A program made the position numbers and the translations under genes. From a virus, in IMG/VR virus record IMGVR_UViG_3300025030_000118, positions 1 through 58,921 of that record: a stretch of DNA of 58,921 nucleotides; one strand, given 5' to 3'. This document shows positions 33,772 through 56,218 of this stretch, piece after piece. How positions within the stretch are numbered: the first letter of the stretch is position 1; every line of letters starts with the position of its first letter. A model generated the notes under the pieces. That model worked only from the letters and a program-made list of their open reading frames with translations, made no database searches and was not told where the DNA came from.

Positions 33772-34062
33772 TTATGATGATTTACTTTCAGTAATTCTTA
33801 ATATGTTTTCACCTCTAATAGATATATGTATTATTTTATCTATAGTTACTCCATTATTATCAAATGTTTTTTCCAAAGTATATGTTTTATAGTCTTCTTC
33901 ATCTAGTATTATTTCATTATCACTGTATCCGTTTTTGGATATAATCTTTCTAGCAATAGATGGATTATGTTTTTTCACTTTAATTTTTGAATTATGCATT
34001 TCTGGTATATTATTTTTTACCCATTCTTTAATAGTTTTTGTTTCATTCATTTCAATCACCAT
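33772..34062 (-). CDS. Small hypothetical protein, end of minus-strand operon
   Basis: 96 residues; ATG overlaps the stop of the C25-like gene by 11 bases, and a second ATG five codons in is also possible. The sequence is basic in its first half (KVKKHNPSIARKI) and acidic or beta in the second half, with no known domain. It is the last gene before a convergent junction with the delta-like gene, 44 bases apart. No clear terminator is visible there. Confidence 0.5.
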   Translation of the reverse strand: MVIEMNETKTIKEWVKNNIPEMHNSKIKVKKHNPSIARKIISKNGYSDNEIILDEEDYKTYTLEKTFDNNGVTIDKIIHISIRGENILRITESKSS

Positions 34063-35044
34063 CTTTTTTAATTTCTATTATTTTTTCCGGATTACCATAA
34101 ATATTAAACTGAAGTATTGTTTTCTTATCTTCTGGTCCTACCATTCCAAACCTATTTATTGTTTCTATTAGAAATTGTTTTTTAGATTCAAAAAATAAAT
34201 TTCCCAAAGATACAGAATTTTTTACAATTTTTGAATAAAATATTTCTCCTAGTAAATCTGATTGTGATGGTGGTGGAAATACTGGTCCATATGATATACT
34301 GGTGGAACAAATTATTGCATCTGCTCCTAATCCTAATAAATGAAGAGGTATTGAGTTAAGTTTATTTTTATTTGATAATTGTCCTCCATAGCAACATTCT
34401 ATATAATAAATAGATCCGTTGGCTGAAATAATATCTGATATTGATAAAGCTATTGGAAATCCATTTTCATCTTGACCAAAATAATTACTTACGTTTTTTT
34501 TACCATGAAGATTAATATGAGAAATATAACAATCATGAATATTATTATTTTTTAATTTATTGTTTTCTTGAGAAGGTGAAGTTAAATAAATTTTAAAATT
34601 AAACTTATTTTGCAAATATTTACTTATTCTGTCCCATCTTAATGCACAATAATTTATTCCAAACTGTTTTTTTGTTGTAGTAGATCTACTATTATTTAAT
34701 ATTTTGATAAAGAAATCTTTATTCCAGTTGTTTTGCTCGTCTGGTATTCTAGATATTATTTTTTCGGAATATAGATAATCAGGAGCAGATGCTGTATATG
34801 CTCCATCACTTTCTATGTATTTATCTTTGTCGTTTACTGGATTTTTTATATTCATAAAAGGAATTATATCAGGTCCACCTACAATCAAAAATATTTTTTC
34901 ACAACTTGTCTGTATATAATTATAAACTTCTTCTTGTTTAACACCATCATTAAATATATGTATGTTTTCAGATATTTGTTTTATATTATCTATAATATCT
35001 GATCCATATTTACTTATTATTTTATTAGAAGTTATTAATTGCAT
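34052..35044 (-). CDS. Gingipain/C25-like caspase-fold cysteine protease
   Basis: 330 residues with AAGGA before ATG. The order of motifs is that of peptidase C25 and related clan CD enzymes. It runs IFLIVGGPDIIPF (51-63), DGAYTASAPDYLYSEKIISR (80-99), the presumed catalytic His180 in ISHINLHGKK, and Cys217 in IYYIECCYGGQ followed by LLGLGADAIICSTS. The C-x-x-G after the Cys matches gingipain. No signal peptide is seen, so it acts in the cell or in the virion. Substrate unknown; maturation of phage proteins or attack on host proteins are both possible. Confidence 0.65.
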   Translation of the reverse strand: MQLITSNKIISKYGSDIIDNIKQISENIHIFNDGVKQEEVYNYIQTSCEKIFLIVGGPDIIPFMNIKNPVNDKDKYIESDGAYTASAPDYLYSEKIISRIPDEQNNWNKDFFIKILNNSRSTTTKKQFGINYCALRWDRISKYLQNKFNFKIYLTSPSQENNKLKNNNIHDCYISHINLHGKKNVSNYFGQDENGFPIALSISDIISANGSIYYIECCYGGQLSNKNKLNSIPLHLLGLGADAIICSTSISYGPVFPPPSQSDLLGEIFYSKIVKNSVSLGNLFFESKKQFLIETINRFGMVGPEDKKTILQFNIYGNPEKIIEIKKDGD

Positions 35045-40968: not shown

Positions 40969-41382
40969 ATGTATCACTTAGATAAAACAAGTAACTCTGT
41001 TTTTTCTTTATTTTTCCACTTTATAACTGTAGTAAAGTACAGACAAAGGATTTTTACAGATGATACTATAGTATCCAATGTAAAACTAATTATGGATGAG
41101 ATAGCTAAAGATTTTGATGTTTTAATTATAGAACAAGAATGTGGAGAAGATCATATACATATTTTATTCAAAGCTAAACCGACCTTAGATATTACTAAGT
41201 TTATAAATATCTTAAAAGGTCACAGCTCTAGGAAAATTAGAGATAAGTATAAAGATTTCTTAAAGGATAAGTTATGGGGCGATAATTTATGGTCTCCGTC
41301 TTATTTTTTGGCTACTTCAGGTAATGTAACAATAGATATTCTTAAAGAATATATAGATAATCAGAGGTCTTTGCAGGAATAA
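40969..41382 (+). CDS. tnpA: IS200/IS605 transposase TnpA (Y1 HUH)
   Basis: 137 residues, complete. VFSLFFHFITVVKYRQRIF at the N terminus, the HUH motif at His62-Ile-His64 (GEDHIHILFKAKP), LKGHSSRKIRD, LWGDNLWSPSYFLAT and the catalytic Tyr128 in EYIDNQ are all in place. It cuts and rejoins single-stranded DNA at the hairpin ends. The preferred substrate is ssDNA such as a replication fork's lagging strand. Its stop overlaps the tnpB start by one base. Confidence 0.95.
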   Translation: MYHLDKTSNSVFSLFFHFITVVKYRQRIFTDDTIVSNVKLIMDEIAKDFDVLIIEQECGEDHIHILFKAKPTLDITKFINILKGHSSRKIRDKYKDFLKDKLWGDNLWSPSYFLATSGNVTIDILKEYIDNQRSLQE

Positions 41383-42599
41383 TGATCACTTATAAATATA
41401 GATTATATCCAAATCGAGACCAGATAGATTTGATGTGGTCTCATTCTAGTAAACTAAATTGGGTTTATAATTATTTTTTAGATCAGAGAATACAAGAGTA
41501 CAAGACTAATCATAAGTCCATCAGTCGTAAAAAACAGCAGTCAGAATTAGTAGATCTTAAAAACAAATATCCGGACCTGAAAGAAATACATTCTCAGGTC
41601 TTACAACAGGTCCCTCTTAGATTATATAAGAGTTATAAAGTTTTTTTCAAGAGATGTAAGTTAGGACAGGGGCCACCTAAATTTAGATCCTGTAAGAAAT
41701 TTTTCACTCTGGTTTATCCTCAGTCAGGTTTCAGTATACAGGATAATATTTTACACACCAAGGTTTATGGAGATATTAAATTCTATAAATCTAGACCAAT
41801 AGAGGGTAATATACAGCAGATTCAGATCACTACTTATAAAAATAAATGGTATCTTTGTGTACTAACAGATCACATTAGACCATCTTCAGATACGGACCTA
41901 AATAAAATGATAGGTATAGATCTAGGAATTACTAATCTTGTAGCGACCAACGAGGGTGAAATCATAAAGAACAAGAATCATGCTAAATATTTTGACAAAC
42001 AGATCAATAAATTAAAGTCAAGGAGGGATAAAAATTGTAAAAAGTATTCTAGGAAATCTAAGGAACTAACTAAGACCATAAACAGATTGTACGACATGAA
42101 GAATAATAAGACCAGGGATTTTCTTCATAAGGTTTCTAAAAACCTATCCAGTAGATTTGGTACGATCTTTATAGAGGACTTAAATCTTAAGACCATGTCA
42201 GAATCTGATATAACTGGATTAAATAGGGAGCTCAGAAACTCCCAATTATCTAGATTTGCAGGTATGGTTATTTACAAGACTAAGAGGACTTTAAAACTGA
42301 ATCCATTTAATACTTCTAAGACCTGTAGTCAATGCGGACATGAATATAATATGCCTTTACACATCAGGGTTTTTAGATGTCTTAATTGTGGTCTTGTAAT
42401 AGACAGAGATGTAAATTCTAGTAAAAACATTTATTGCCTGGGACGGGCCGTTCTATCTAGTAATAAGGAGTTAGAAATGATAGAATGTACTGGATTTTCA
42501 ACTATGACGATCCGGGAATACTGGTCTAATCAGCCAGCACTGCAGACTAAAGATGATAGGAGAGATCCAAAAGAATCTCCTGTCTTTAGGCAGGAGTAG
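41382..42599 (+). CDS. tnpB: TnpB RNA-guided nuclease of IS605-type element
   Basis: 405 residues, full length. RuvC residues are Asp180 (IGIDLGITNLVA), Glu265 (TIFIEDLNLK) and Asp343 (DRDVNSSKNI). A zinc ribbon lies between the last two (CSQCGHEY, then FRCLNCG). The N terminus has the usual TnpB start (YKYRLYPNRDQIDLMWSHSS). TnpB proteins are omega-RNA-guided nucleases that cut the vacated site and so retain the element. The 3' end of the gene overlaps the right-end hairpin, the usual source of the guide RNA scaffold. Confidence 0.95.
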   Translation: MITYKYRLYPNRDQIDLMWSHSSKLNWVYNYFLDQRIQEYKTNHKSISRKKQQSELVDLKNKYPDLKEIHSQVLQQVPLRLYKSYKVFFKRCKLGQGPPKFRSCKKFFTLVYPQSGFSIQDNILHTKVYGDIKFYKSRPIEGNIQQIQITTYKNKWYLCVLTDHIRPSSDTDLNKMIGIDLGITNLVATNEGEIIKNKNHAKYFDKQINKLKSRRDKNCKKYSRKSKELTKTINRLYDMKNNKTRDFLHKVSKNLSSRFGTIFIEDLNLKTMSESDITGLNRELRNSQLSRFAGMVIYKTKRTLKLNPFNTSKTCSQCGHEYNMPLHIRVFRCLNCGLVIDRDVNSSKNIYCLGRAVLSSNKELEMIECTGFSTMTIREYWSNQPALQTKDDRRDPKESPVFRQE

Positions 42600-52607: not shown

Positions 52608-53185
52608 TGATAAACAAATTAAAAATAATGAAAGATCTTTGGGATAAAGTTAAAAATTGTTATAAATGTAATATTAATTCTACAATAGGAGAAAATAATC
52701 CTCATGTTTTTATTAGAGGAGGAGTCAATTCAAAAATCTTAGTTATTGGTCAAAATCCTGGAAAAGATGAAGTTATCCAAGGAAAGCCTTTTATTGGTAA
52801 ATCTGGAAAAATATTAAATAAATTACTAGAAGAATCAGGATTGAGAGAAAAAGATTATTTAATAATGAATTCTATTTTTTGCTATACTCCGAAAAACAGA
52901 AAGCCTAAAGAAGAAGAAATAAGAAAATGTAGAGTTAATTATGGATTGAAAATAATATCAATAATGGATCCTAAAATAATAATAACAATGGGATCATCGG
53001 CTTTAGACTTTATATCTGGTGAAACAAAAGAGATAATGCAATATAGAGGAACATGGAAAAAATTTATGGGTAAAAATGTTTTTGTAATGTTACATCCAGC
53101 TTCTGGAATATATAGTAAAGAGAGAAAGGTTTTATTCGAAAATGATTTCAAATATTTTAAAGAAACTTGCAAAAAATATTTATAA
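52607..53185 (+). CDS. Uracil-DNA glycosylase, family 4 type
   Basis: 192 residues. Motif A GQNPGKDE (48-55) and motif B MLHPAS (about 160) are present. Cys18, Cys21, Cys92 and Cys108 (CYKC; FCYTPKNRKPKEEEIRKC) match the 4Fe-4S ligands of family 4 enzymes. It removes uracil from DNA, so this phage should carry ordinary thymine, in line with its own ThyX. The start overlaps the previous stop by one base. Confidence 0.85.
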   Translation: MINKLKIMKDLWDKVKNCYKCNINSTIGENNPHVFIRGGVNSKILVIGQNPGKDEVIQGKPFIGKSGKILNKLLEESGLREKDYLIMNSIFCYTPKNRKPKEEEIRKCRVNYGLKIISIMDPKIIITMGSSALDFISGETKEIMQYRGTWKKFMGKNVFVMLHPASGIYSKERKVLFENDFKYFKETCKKYL

Positions 53186-53283: not shown

Positions 53284-54081
53284 ATGAAAAAGACCTTCTT
53301 AAATGAAATTATAATGTCAGATAACCCTCTTTTTAATTATAATAATTTAATTATTTTAGTTCCAGAATTAAGAGATTGTGTTAAATGTAATCAAAACAAA
53401 TATCACTCTAAAAATGTTTTTGGTCACATTATGGATGTAGTAATGTCTTGCGAAAAAGATTTAATACTAAAACTTGCCGCATTGTTTCATGATATAGGAA
53501 AACCAAAGGTAAAAACTTATCATTGTCCTGATTGTGATAAAAAGTATTTGGATAGACCTTTTCATTGTGGTAAAAAGTTTGATGATATTAATTGTCATTT
53601 TTATCAGCATGAAGTAGAAAGTGGAAAAATGATACAAAAAATAATGGAAAGATTAGAATATAATGAGAATATAATTTACAATGTAAGAATATTAGTAGAA
53701 GATCATATGTTTCCTTTCGATATGAATAAAAAAACAGTTAAAAAACTAATAAAAAGAGTTGGTAAAAATAATATAGTAAATCTTATAAAATTAAGAATTG
53801 CGGATATTATGGGATCTAAAAATGATTCAATATCAGATCTTAAAAAAACAAGAAAAATGTTAGATATTATGTCAGAAATAATAGAAGAGGATGAATCTTT
53901 TACTATAAAAGATCTTGCAATAAATGGTAAAGATGTTATAGAAATATTAAATATTAAACCGTCTAAAATAGTTGGAGAAATATTAAAAACATTACTTGAA
54001 GAAGTTAAAAATAATCCAGAGAAAAATAATAGAGAATGTTTATTAGAGATGATATGTTTGTATGATCAGACTTATAAATGA
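53284..54081 (+). CDS. HD-domain phosphohydrolase related to CCA-enzyme HD domain
   Basis: 265 residues with AAGGGA upstream. VPELRDCVKCNQNKYHSKNV, then FGHIMDVVMSC (His48) and LAALFHDIGKPK (His69-Asp70) match the HD part of bacterial tRNA nucleotidyltransferases. The polymerase part is absent. An inserted Cys cluster (HCPDCDKKYLDRPFHCGKKF) looks like a zinc ribbon. Such stand-alone HD proteins in phages could act on nucleotides or RNA 3' ends. Proximity to a tRNA and a Thg1-like gene is suggestive. Confidence 0.75.
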   Translation: MKKTFLNEIIMSDNPLFNYNNLIILVPELRDCVKCNQNKYHSKNVFGHIMDVVMSCEKDLILKLAALFHDIGKPKVKTYHCPDCDKKYLDRPFHCGKKFDDINCHFYQHEVESGKMIQKIMERLEYNENIIYNVRILVEDHMFPFDMNKKTVKKLIKRVGKNNIVNLIKLRIADIMGSKNDSISDLKKTRKMLDIMSEIIEEDESFTIKDLAINGKDVIEILNIKPSKIVGEILKTLLEEVKNNPEKNNRECLLEMICLYDQTYK

Positions 54082-55017: not shown

Positions 55018-55260
55018 ATGGAAAATCAAATAGGAGATAATAAACTTTATTATGAGAAAAGAGAAATAAGTTCAGAATTCAACACCTTTTATATTGAGAT
55101 GAAAGGTAATAATGTTGAAATTATAGGAGATGGAACATCTAATGGAACTAAAGTAATAATTAACGGAGAGCAAGTTAAAGGAATACAATCATTAGATATA
55201 TTTTTAAATATCAATAAACCAACAATAGTTGATATAAGCTTAATAGTAATTCCAAAATAA
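55018..55260 (+). CDS. Small hypothetical protein upstream of tRNA
   Basis: 80 residues from ATG 55018, chosen because AGGAGG lies 7 bases upstream; longer frames starting inside the previous gene are artefacts. A TATAAT at 54994-54999 could start a transcript, but no good -35 box is present. Beta-rich with TFYIEMKGNNVEIIGDGTSN and a hydrophobic end (PTIVDISLIVIPK). Unknown function. Confidence 0.55.
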   Translation: MENQIGDNKLYYEKREISSEFNTFYIEMKGNNVEIIGDGTSNGTKVIINGEQVKGIQSLDIFLNINKPTIVDISLIVIPK

Positions 55261-55268
55261 TAGATTAC

Positions 55269-55342
55269 AGGGACGTAGCTCAACTGGCTAGAGCATCAGT
55301 CTCCAAAACTGAATGTTGTGGGTTCGAGTCCCATCGTTCCTG
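55269..55342 (+). tRNA. tRNA-Trp (anticodon CCA)
   Basis: AGGGACG pairs with CGTTCCT in the acceptor stem (one G-U). The D arm is TAGCTCAACTGGCTAGAGCA. The anticodon stem TCAGT/ACTGA holds loop CTCCAAA, giving anticodon CCA. The T arm has GTGGG-TTCGAGT-CCCAT. The 3' CCA is not encoded. It begins 8 bases after a coding gene and ends 12 bases before the Thg1-like gene, whose binding site overlaps the tRNA's immediate 3' flank. The pair therefore share a transcript. Confidence 0.9.
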
Positions 55343-55354
55343 CTGGAGGATATA

Positions 55355-56218
55355 ATGGAAAACAAATCAGATTATTTTAAATCTGTTATCAAAGATTATG
55401 ATAAATATTTAGATAAATCATTATATACAATTTTATGGTTTGATGGTAATAGTTTTCATAATTTCACTAAAAACTTCTTAGATTATTATGATCCTTTTTT
55501 ACATGATTGTATTATTAAAGGAACTCAAAAACTAGTTGATGAATATTTTGGTAATCTATGGTCAACTATTTATCACCAATCAGATGAAATTACTATTATT
55601 ATTCCTCCTATGAAAAACAAAGAGACAGAATTACCTTTTAGTGGGAGAGTTACTAAATATTTATCTGTATTTTCAAGTAAGTTATCATTATATGTTTCTA
55701 ATTATCTTTTATGGATTAACTTAACTAATCCAATGAAACAAGAAAATTTATTATCTCTTGAGATTAAGGAAGATATTGTTAATATTGTTAATATTTTAAA
55801 GAAAATATATAATGGATCTAGAGTGGATAATATTAAATATGATCGTTATGGTACTGGAATTATAAATAAAGGTAAAATAAGTATTGATAAATATGATTAC
55901 TATCCTTCTGGAATTAGAGTTAGTGTTAAAGATTCAGAATGTGTTTTCGATTGTAAGGTTTTTCAACTAGAAGATGAAGAAGAAACAAGATCTTTTCTTA
56001 CTTATAGAAGAGTAGATGCTTTAAGAAACAGTAAGTCATCTCTGGGAAGATTATTTTTTTCCCATAAAGAAATGATTGGAAAATCAAGCTCAGATGTTAT
56101 TTCAGAAATTAATGAAAAATATAATATTGATTGGTATTCTTTTCCTCAAGAGATGAAAAGAGGAACAATAATTAGAAATTCTAACAATATTTTTGAGGAT
56201 GGTTTTGTTGATCATTAG
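55355..56218 (+). CDS. Thg1-like 3'-5' polymerase (tRNA-His guanylyltransferase family)
   Basis: 287 residues from ATG 55355 (GGAGGA upstream); a longer frame starting inside the tRNA is an artefact. Catalytic Asp30 lies in ILWFDGNSFHNFTK and Asp77-Glu78 in YHQSDEITIIIPP, matching the metal ligands of Thg1. Further family marks are LPFSGRVTKYLSVFSSKLS, CVFDCKVFQLEDEEETRSFL and YRRVDALRNSK. The family adds nucleotides to RNA 5' ends, and Thg1-like proteins repair tRNA 5' ends. The Arg of the usual DGRxF is Asn here. Being fused operonically to a tRNA gene suggests tRNA repair. Confidence 0.88.
   Translation: MENKSDYFKSVIKDYDKYLDKSLYTILWFDGNSFHNFTKNFLDYYDPFLHDCIIKGTQKLVDEYFGNLWSTIYHQSDEITIIIPPMKNKETELPFSGRVTKYLSVFSSKLSLYVSNYLLWINLTNPMKQENLLSLEIKEDIVNIVNILKKIYNGSRVDNIKYDRYGTGIINKGKISIDKYDYYPSGIRVSVKDSECVFDCKVFQLEDEEETRSFLTYRRVDALRNSKSSLGRLFFSHKEMIGKSSSDVISEINEKYNIDWYSFPQEMKRGTIIRNSNNIFEDGFVDH

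Follow-up and report, generated by a model that had tools for sequence, protein, structure and literature searches.

A divergent Thg1-like protein with altered nucleotide-pocket residues is encoded beside a tRNA-Trp gene on a viral DNA fragment

The stretch of DNA analyzed here (the window) is a single IMG/VR virus record, IMGVR_UViG_3300025030_000118, of 58,921 bases with a GC content of 27%, and is probably a fragment of a phage genome. An 80-aa ORF, a tRNA-Trp gene and a gene encoding a Thg1-like protein (TLP) form a compact run on the same strand (Table 1). The stop codon of the 80-aa ORF lies 8 bases upstream of the tRNA gene, and the tRNA ends 12 bases before the ATG of the TLP gene, as had been predicted. 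A search for intrinsic terminators between positions 53000 and 57200 of the window found none, and the three genes are probably carried on a shared transcript. This gene order was absent from all of the TLP loci compared. Among the matches listed, the tRNA was the only part of the region with DNA similarity to known phages. Single-protein scans of IMG/VR with the TLP and with the nearby HD-domain protein found no close relatives, and RecA of the window had just two matches in IMG/VR, both of them distant. Two features elsewhere in the window were recognized only by eye. The protein encoded at 34052-35044 on the minus strand, which had no Pfam match, contains two motifs, one with His-Gly (SHINLHGKK) and one with Cys (YIECCYGGQ), that recall caspase-like peptidases, and two ORFs at 40969-42599 on the plus strand, within the replication gene block, resemble TnpA and TnpB of IS200/IS605.

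Table 1. Genes, sites and residues at the tRNA-Trp-TLP locus (window coordinates)
Feature	Position	Strand	Basis or remark
HD-domain protein	53284..54081	+	HD and tRNA_NucTran2_2 matches; resembles CCA-adding enzymes in their C-terminal half only
80-aa ORF, unknown family	55018..55260	+	Shine-Dalgarno-like site of its own
tRNA-Trp, anticodon CCA	55269..55342	+	ARAGORN, Rfam RF00005, sequence inspection
GGAGG, Shine-Dalgarno-like, for the TLP gene	55345..55349	+	Sequence inspection; starts 2 bases past the tRNA discriminator
TLP, 287 aa	55355..56218	+	Pfam, PHROG, PDB sequence match, AlphaFold model
Trp28, replacing the incoming-NTP arginine (BtTLP R28)	55436..55438	+	Alignments
Metal ligand Asp30 (BtTLP D30)	55442..55444	+	Alignments
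Asp43-Tyr44, replacing BtTLP K43-P44	55481..55486	+	Alignments
Metal ligands Asp77-Glu78 (BtTLP D75-E76)	55583..55588	+	Alignments
Insert-bearing stretch, residues about 118 to 196	55706..55942	+	Alignment, model
Lys201, replacing the gamma-phosphate arginine (BtTLP R131)	55955..55957	+	Alignments

The tRNA gene was called by ARAGORN at 55269-55343, and Rfam RF00005 matched it with 67.3 bits against a gathering threshold of 29 bits (E = 1.6e-12), values that argue against a chance match. The RNA folds as a canonical cloverleaf with an A1-U72 pair and discriminator G73, in agreement with its original description as complete, and it is the sole tRNA in the record. A CCA tail is not encoded; G73 is followed by CT-GGAGG-ATATA-ATG. 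We considered several specific roles for this tRNA. Editing of a mismatched 5′ acceptor strand was rejected because all seven pairs from 1-72 to 7-66 form, with one G-U pair at 4-69, and hence the tRNA needs no 5′ editing. There was no sign of UGA recoding, the anticodon being CCA and the genes being read in table 11. Codon bias was unhelpful as an explanation since Trp has a single codon; in the window proteins counted, 0.8% of residues are Trp.

TLPs are polymerases whose nucleotide addition takes place at the 5′ end. The product of the downstream gene scored 50.5 bits with the Pfam Thg1 family (PF04446; cut-off 29.2 bits; E = 2.5e-13) and also matched PHROG 4717, annotated as tRNA-His guanylyltransferase (E = 1.3e-36). 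Its only PDB sequence match was the TLP of Bacillus thuringiensis (BtTLP, 4kgk). An AlphaFold model built from 32 aligned sequences had core blocks mostly at 85-96 pLDDT; the top PDB match of this model was 4kgm (E = 3.3e-14), followed by 4kgk, and all 32 structure matches with E below 0.001 were Thg1 or TLP entries. The protein is thus predicted to have the Thg1/TLP fold. A search of a defense-system library gave no match to the TLP.

We next compared the window TLP with its relatives in an alignment of 273 distinct TLPs (the window TLP included) drawn from phages, IMG/VR and bacterial genomes; residue roles are given in BtTLP numbering. The residues kept in the window TLP are D30, D77, E78, S76, K101, D199, R218, D221, N225 and G270, of which D30, D77 and E78 are invariant across all aligned TLPs. 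The earlier assignment to the Thg1 family and the naming of Asp30, Asp77 and Glu78 as intact metal ligands were correct. The description as intact applies to the metal site only. Solved structures and kinetics have indicated that R28, K99, R131 and R16′ bind the triphosphate of the incoming NTP in the transfer step, and that E12 forms salt bridges with R28 and R131 (PMC3701042). K43 is assigned to the activating ATP, and a BtTLP K43A substitution lowers adenylylation about tenfold while leaving guanylylation unchanged (PMC3701042). The window TLP has other residues in place of R28 and R131 of the incoming-NTP site, probably also of R16 and E12, and in place of the activation lysine K43; K99 is kept (as K101). 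Position 43 is K or R in 263 of the 273 TLPs, and P44 is present in 272, the window TLP alone being different. The Arg16 to Asp and Glu12 to Ile changes are less certain than the others: they appear in a gap-free phmmer alignment, while MAFFT places a gap near window residues 16-19. We prefer the gap-free version because it agrees with the N-terminal helix modeled at residues 4-13.

The window TLP also contains a large insert. In one alignment, the span from K101 to F198 comprised 97 aa in the window TLP compared to 24-75 aa in other TLPs. The insert amounts to about 70 extra aa and was modeled largely with low confidence, notably at residues 155-188. In yeast Thg1, alanine at the positions corresponding to R28, K99 and R131 leaves nucleotidyl transfer badly impaired (PMC3701042), and on this basis the loss of R28 together with the R131 to K change could mean that polymerase activity has been lost. 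As NTP-binding residues and K43 are replaced, ordinary 3′-5′ repair by the window TLP cannot be assumed; with its nucleotide-binding pocket rebuilt in this way, its chemistry may differ from what the family name suggests.

The R131 to K change was found in exactly 15 of the 273 TLPs, the window TLP and 14 others, and all 15 have lost R28 and carry K at position 156, which is Lys227 in the window TLP. The 14 others have M, F or H in place of R28; in nearly all of them position 12 is R and position 16 is acidic. These proteins, from Lak megaphage C1 and 13 IMG/VR loci, are referred to here as Lak-type TLPs, a clade named in this analysis. One reservation applies to the sampling: the peptide pattern of one TLP scan contained R28, two other patterns contained none of R28, K43, P44 and R131, and one further pattern touched the stretch up to K43-P44 with other residues allowed. 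The 14 Lak-type TLPs were monophyletic with a support of 100 when the pocket columns were left out of the alignment. A tree holding the window TLP with them had a likelihood 14 log units above that of the free search (p-AU 0.65). Shared descent of the window TLP with the Lak-type clade is thus favored, and no firmer statement is made because the window TLP sits on a long branch. To judge from the alignments, the coordinated pocket change is an overlooked feature of the window TLP that is common to a little-noticed group. A monophyletic set of phage TLPs altered at transfer-step residues offers a direct test of which half-reaction phages need.

The original prediction held that the tRNA-Trp gene is functionally coupled to the TLP gene. 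TLP loci were reduced to 222 at 80% identity, and the tRNA-bearing gaps were shuffled within each locus. Any tRNA was present within about 4 kb of the TLP gene in 28 of the 222 loci and directly beside it in 9, compared to 9.1 expected (p = 0.60), with the same outcome at 90% and 60% identity. Of 17 TLP loci taken from the phage collection, 16 lacked a tRNA in the surrounding stretch that was read. The tRNAs that do adjoin TLP genes vary in isotype (Pro, Leu, Cys, Arg, His and Trp). One lineage of three loci, L098, L104 and L143, whose TLPs are 66-72% identical, has kept a Met-Pro tRNA array ahead of the TLP gene at a distance of about 20-40 nt; this is real synteny with other isotypes, and the layout recurs without being enriched. 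tRNA genes were somewhat more frequent in TLP loci (31 of 208) than in ThyX control loci (5 of 79; p = 0.03), which is weak evidence for a general link to translation. The chance-level adjacency in the 222 loci led us to reject tRNA-TLP linkage as a conserved unit, and together with the tRNA-free collection loci and an acceptor stem that needs no editing it speaks against functional coupling of this tRNA-Trp to the TLP. The tRNA adjacency is eye-catching, yet it provides no evidence of coupling. As a separate observation, in another locus (L287, 3932-4871) a gene for tRNA-His, the classical Thg1 substrate, begins 12 bases after the TLP gene.

Genes for RNA repair were common around TLP genes. 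RlaP was found in 33 of 208 TLP loci compared to 1 of 79 ThyX loci. HD-kinase (22 TLP loci), two RNA ligase groups (17 and 10) and CCA enzymes (11) were found in no ThyX locus, and NADAR (14) and macro (9) genes occurred in at most one ThyX locus each; this comparison is biased towards TLP loci because the profiles were built from them. Gene identities were checked by Pfam, the macro match being below the cut-off. Within a locus, the repair genes were no closer to the TLP gene than other genes were. We conclude that phage TLP loci are enriched in RNA-repair genes, which agrees with the linkage of kinase, macro and ligase genes to TLPs in bacteria (PMC2904730). In the 58.9-kb fragment a search for RlaP, RNA ligase, macro and NADAR genes found none, and no repair-type kinase was present among the window proteins scanned. 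An RNA-repair setting, as first proposed, is plausible from the greater frequency of these genes in TLP than in ThyX loci; a repair role is likewise plausible for the family but cannot be assumed for the window TLP, whose transfer site is rebuilt. The only window member of this circle of genes is the HD-domain protein. It had been described as related to the CCA enzyme and as a candidate for acting on the other tRNA end. The relationship stands for the C-terminal half, but domain searches found no nucleotidyltransferase (PolyA_pol) head domain, and without this catalytic half the protein itself is no CCA-adding enzyme.

Several other TLP loci had arrangements of their own. Genes resembling CCA-adding enzymes lie immediately upstream of the TLP gene in three of them (L112, where the gene was checked by Pfam, and L059 and L165, where it was assigned by similarity), such that enzymes for both tRNA ends adjoin. 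In L132 (2802-3986), the gene directly upstream of a phage TLP encodes a fusion of NADAR and NAD synthase. One 49.8-kb contig, IMGVR_UViG_3300002220_000984, carries two different TLP genes (L291 and L319), whose products share 35% and 31% identity with the window TLP over their best segments; these paralogues possibly divide labor.

The best explanation for these results, to which we give an even chance, is that the window TLP is a divergent phage enzyme for RNA 5′-end repair or activation and that its tRNA-Trp neighbor is incidental. During infection, the TLP would work at the 5′ termini of RNAs that are damaged or truncated, for the most part tRNAs. It would activate the 5′-phosphate with GTP or ATP, and nucleotides would then be added opposite the 3′ strand by means of a re-arranged phosphate site formed by Lys101, Lys201 and perhaps Lys227. 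The tRNA-Trp would serve separately as a spare tRNA, tied to the TLP by the shared transcript alone. TLPs were already known from phages, as 85 phage-collection records match the family and phage members are mentioned in PMC3601020, PMC7824862 and PMC2904730. A role against host defenses was proposed in 2010 (PMC2904730), so the anti-nuclease idea attached to this locus is not new. A dedicated pair, in which the TLP maintains or repairs the adjoining tRNA-Trp and both together overcome a tRNA-Trp-cutting host nuclease, would be in keeping with the tight spacing, the probable co-transcription, the tRNA arrays that end within about 40 nt of the TLP start in L098, L104 and L143, and the known success of spare phage tRNAs against tRNA nucleases, PtuAB and PrrC among them (PMC11555353). 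We nevertheless consider it very unlikely, as adjacency is at the chance level, the neighboring isotype differs from case to case, the paired acceptor stem leaves nothing to edit and characterized TLPs act on many tRNAs (PMC6471195). An adder of G-1 to tRNA-His is less likely still: the family name speaks for it, but the record contains no tRNA-His, bacterial tRNA-His genes mostly encode G-1, and bacterial TLPs prefer to repair truncated tRNAs (PMC6471195).

The pocket changes themselves allow two further readings. The activity of the window and Lak-type TLPs might be confined to 5′-end activation, which would leave AppRNA or GppRNA caps, or to joining of the activated end to an RNA 3′-OH, with no polymerization. 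R28, R131, R16 and E12, which take part in transfer and the associated salt bridges (PMC3701042), are lost or exchanged together while the metal site and the activation site (S76, T38 and L49) stay, and ligation through 5′-App was earlier suggested for Thg1 generally (PMC2904730). On the other hand, the window TLP has lost K43, the residue that positions the ATP used in activation (although BtTLP K43A still guanylylates), the transfer-site residues K101 and R218 are kept, and a literature search found no biochemistry for the Lak-type clade. We regard this reading as unlikely; that Lak-type TLPs, including that of the window, have abandoned templated 3′-5′ polymerization for an RNA capping enzyme or ligase built on the Thg1 fold seems a little more doubtful still. 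Equally doubtful is a pseudoenzyme or decaying gene that has kept its metal ligands while being catalytically dead or binding RNA only. The window TLP has one of the longest branches in the tree, a unique loss of P44, D in place of K43 and a long low-confidence insert, all of which would fit decay. However, its ORF of 287 codons is intact and has its own Shine-Dalgarno-like site in a genome of 27% GC, the three carboxylates and other family-invariant residues are kept, and most of the pocket changes are common to a clade of intact genes.

Among known systems, the window TLP resembles BtTLP (4kgk/4kgm) in its fold, its three metal carboxylates, the activation serine, K99 and R147, and differs from it by R28>W, R131>K, K43>D, P44>Y, by R16>D and E12>I in the gap-free alignment, and by the about 70 more residues between K101 and F198. 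It shares with the Lak-type TLPs the loss of R28, R131>K, K156, a Cys before the R131 position, Tyr for Trp146 (in most of them) and an acidic residue at position 16 (again in most). Unlike the window TLP, the Lak-type proteins retain P44 and, in most cases, K43; position 12 is R in nearly all of them, and they contain only 42-56 aa where the window TLP has 97. Bc431v3 gp143, 201phi2-1 gp319, phage G gp378 and the TLPs of Fusobacterium and Burkholderia phages are likewise phage-borne members of PHROG 4717, but have a canonical NTP site where aligned and no adjoining tRNA in the collection loci examined. The tRNA-Trp is, like T5 tRNA-Tyr and SP15 tRNA-Lys (PMC11555353), a phage-encoded elongator tRNA; unlike these spare tRNAs it is of another isotype, with no strong tRNA promoter or matching host nuclease evident here.
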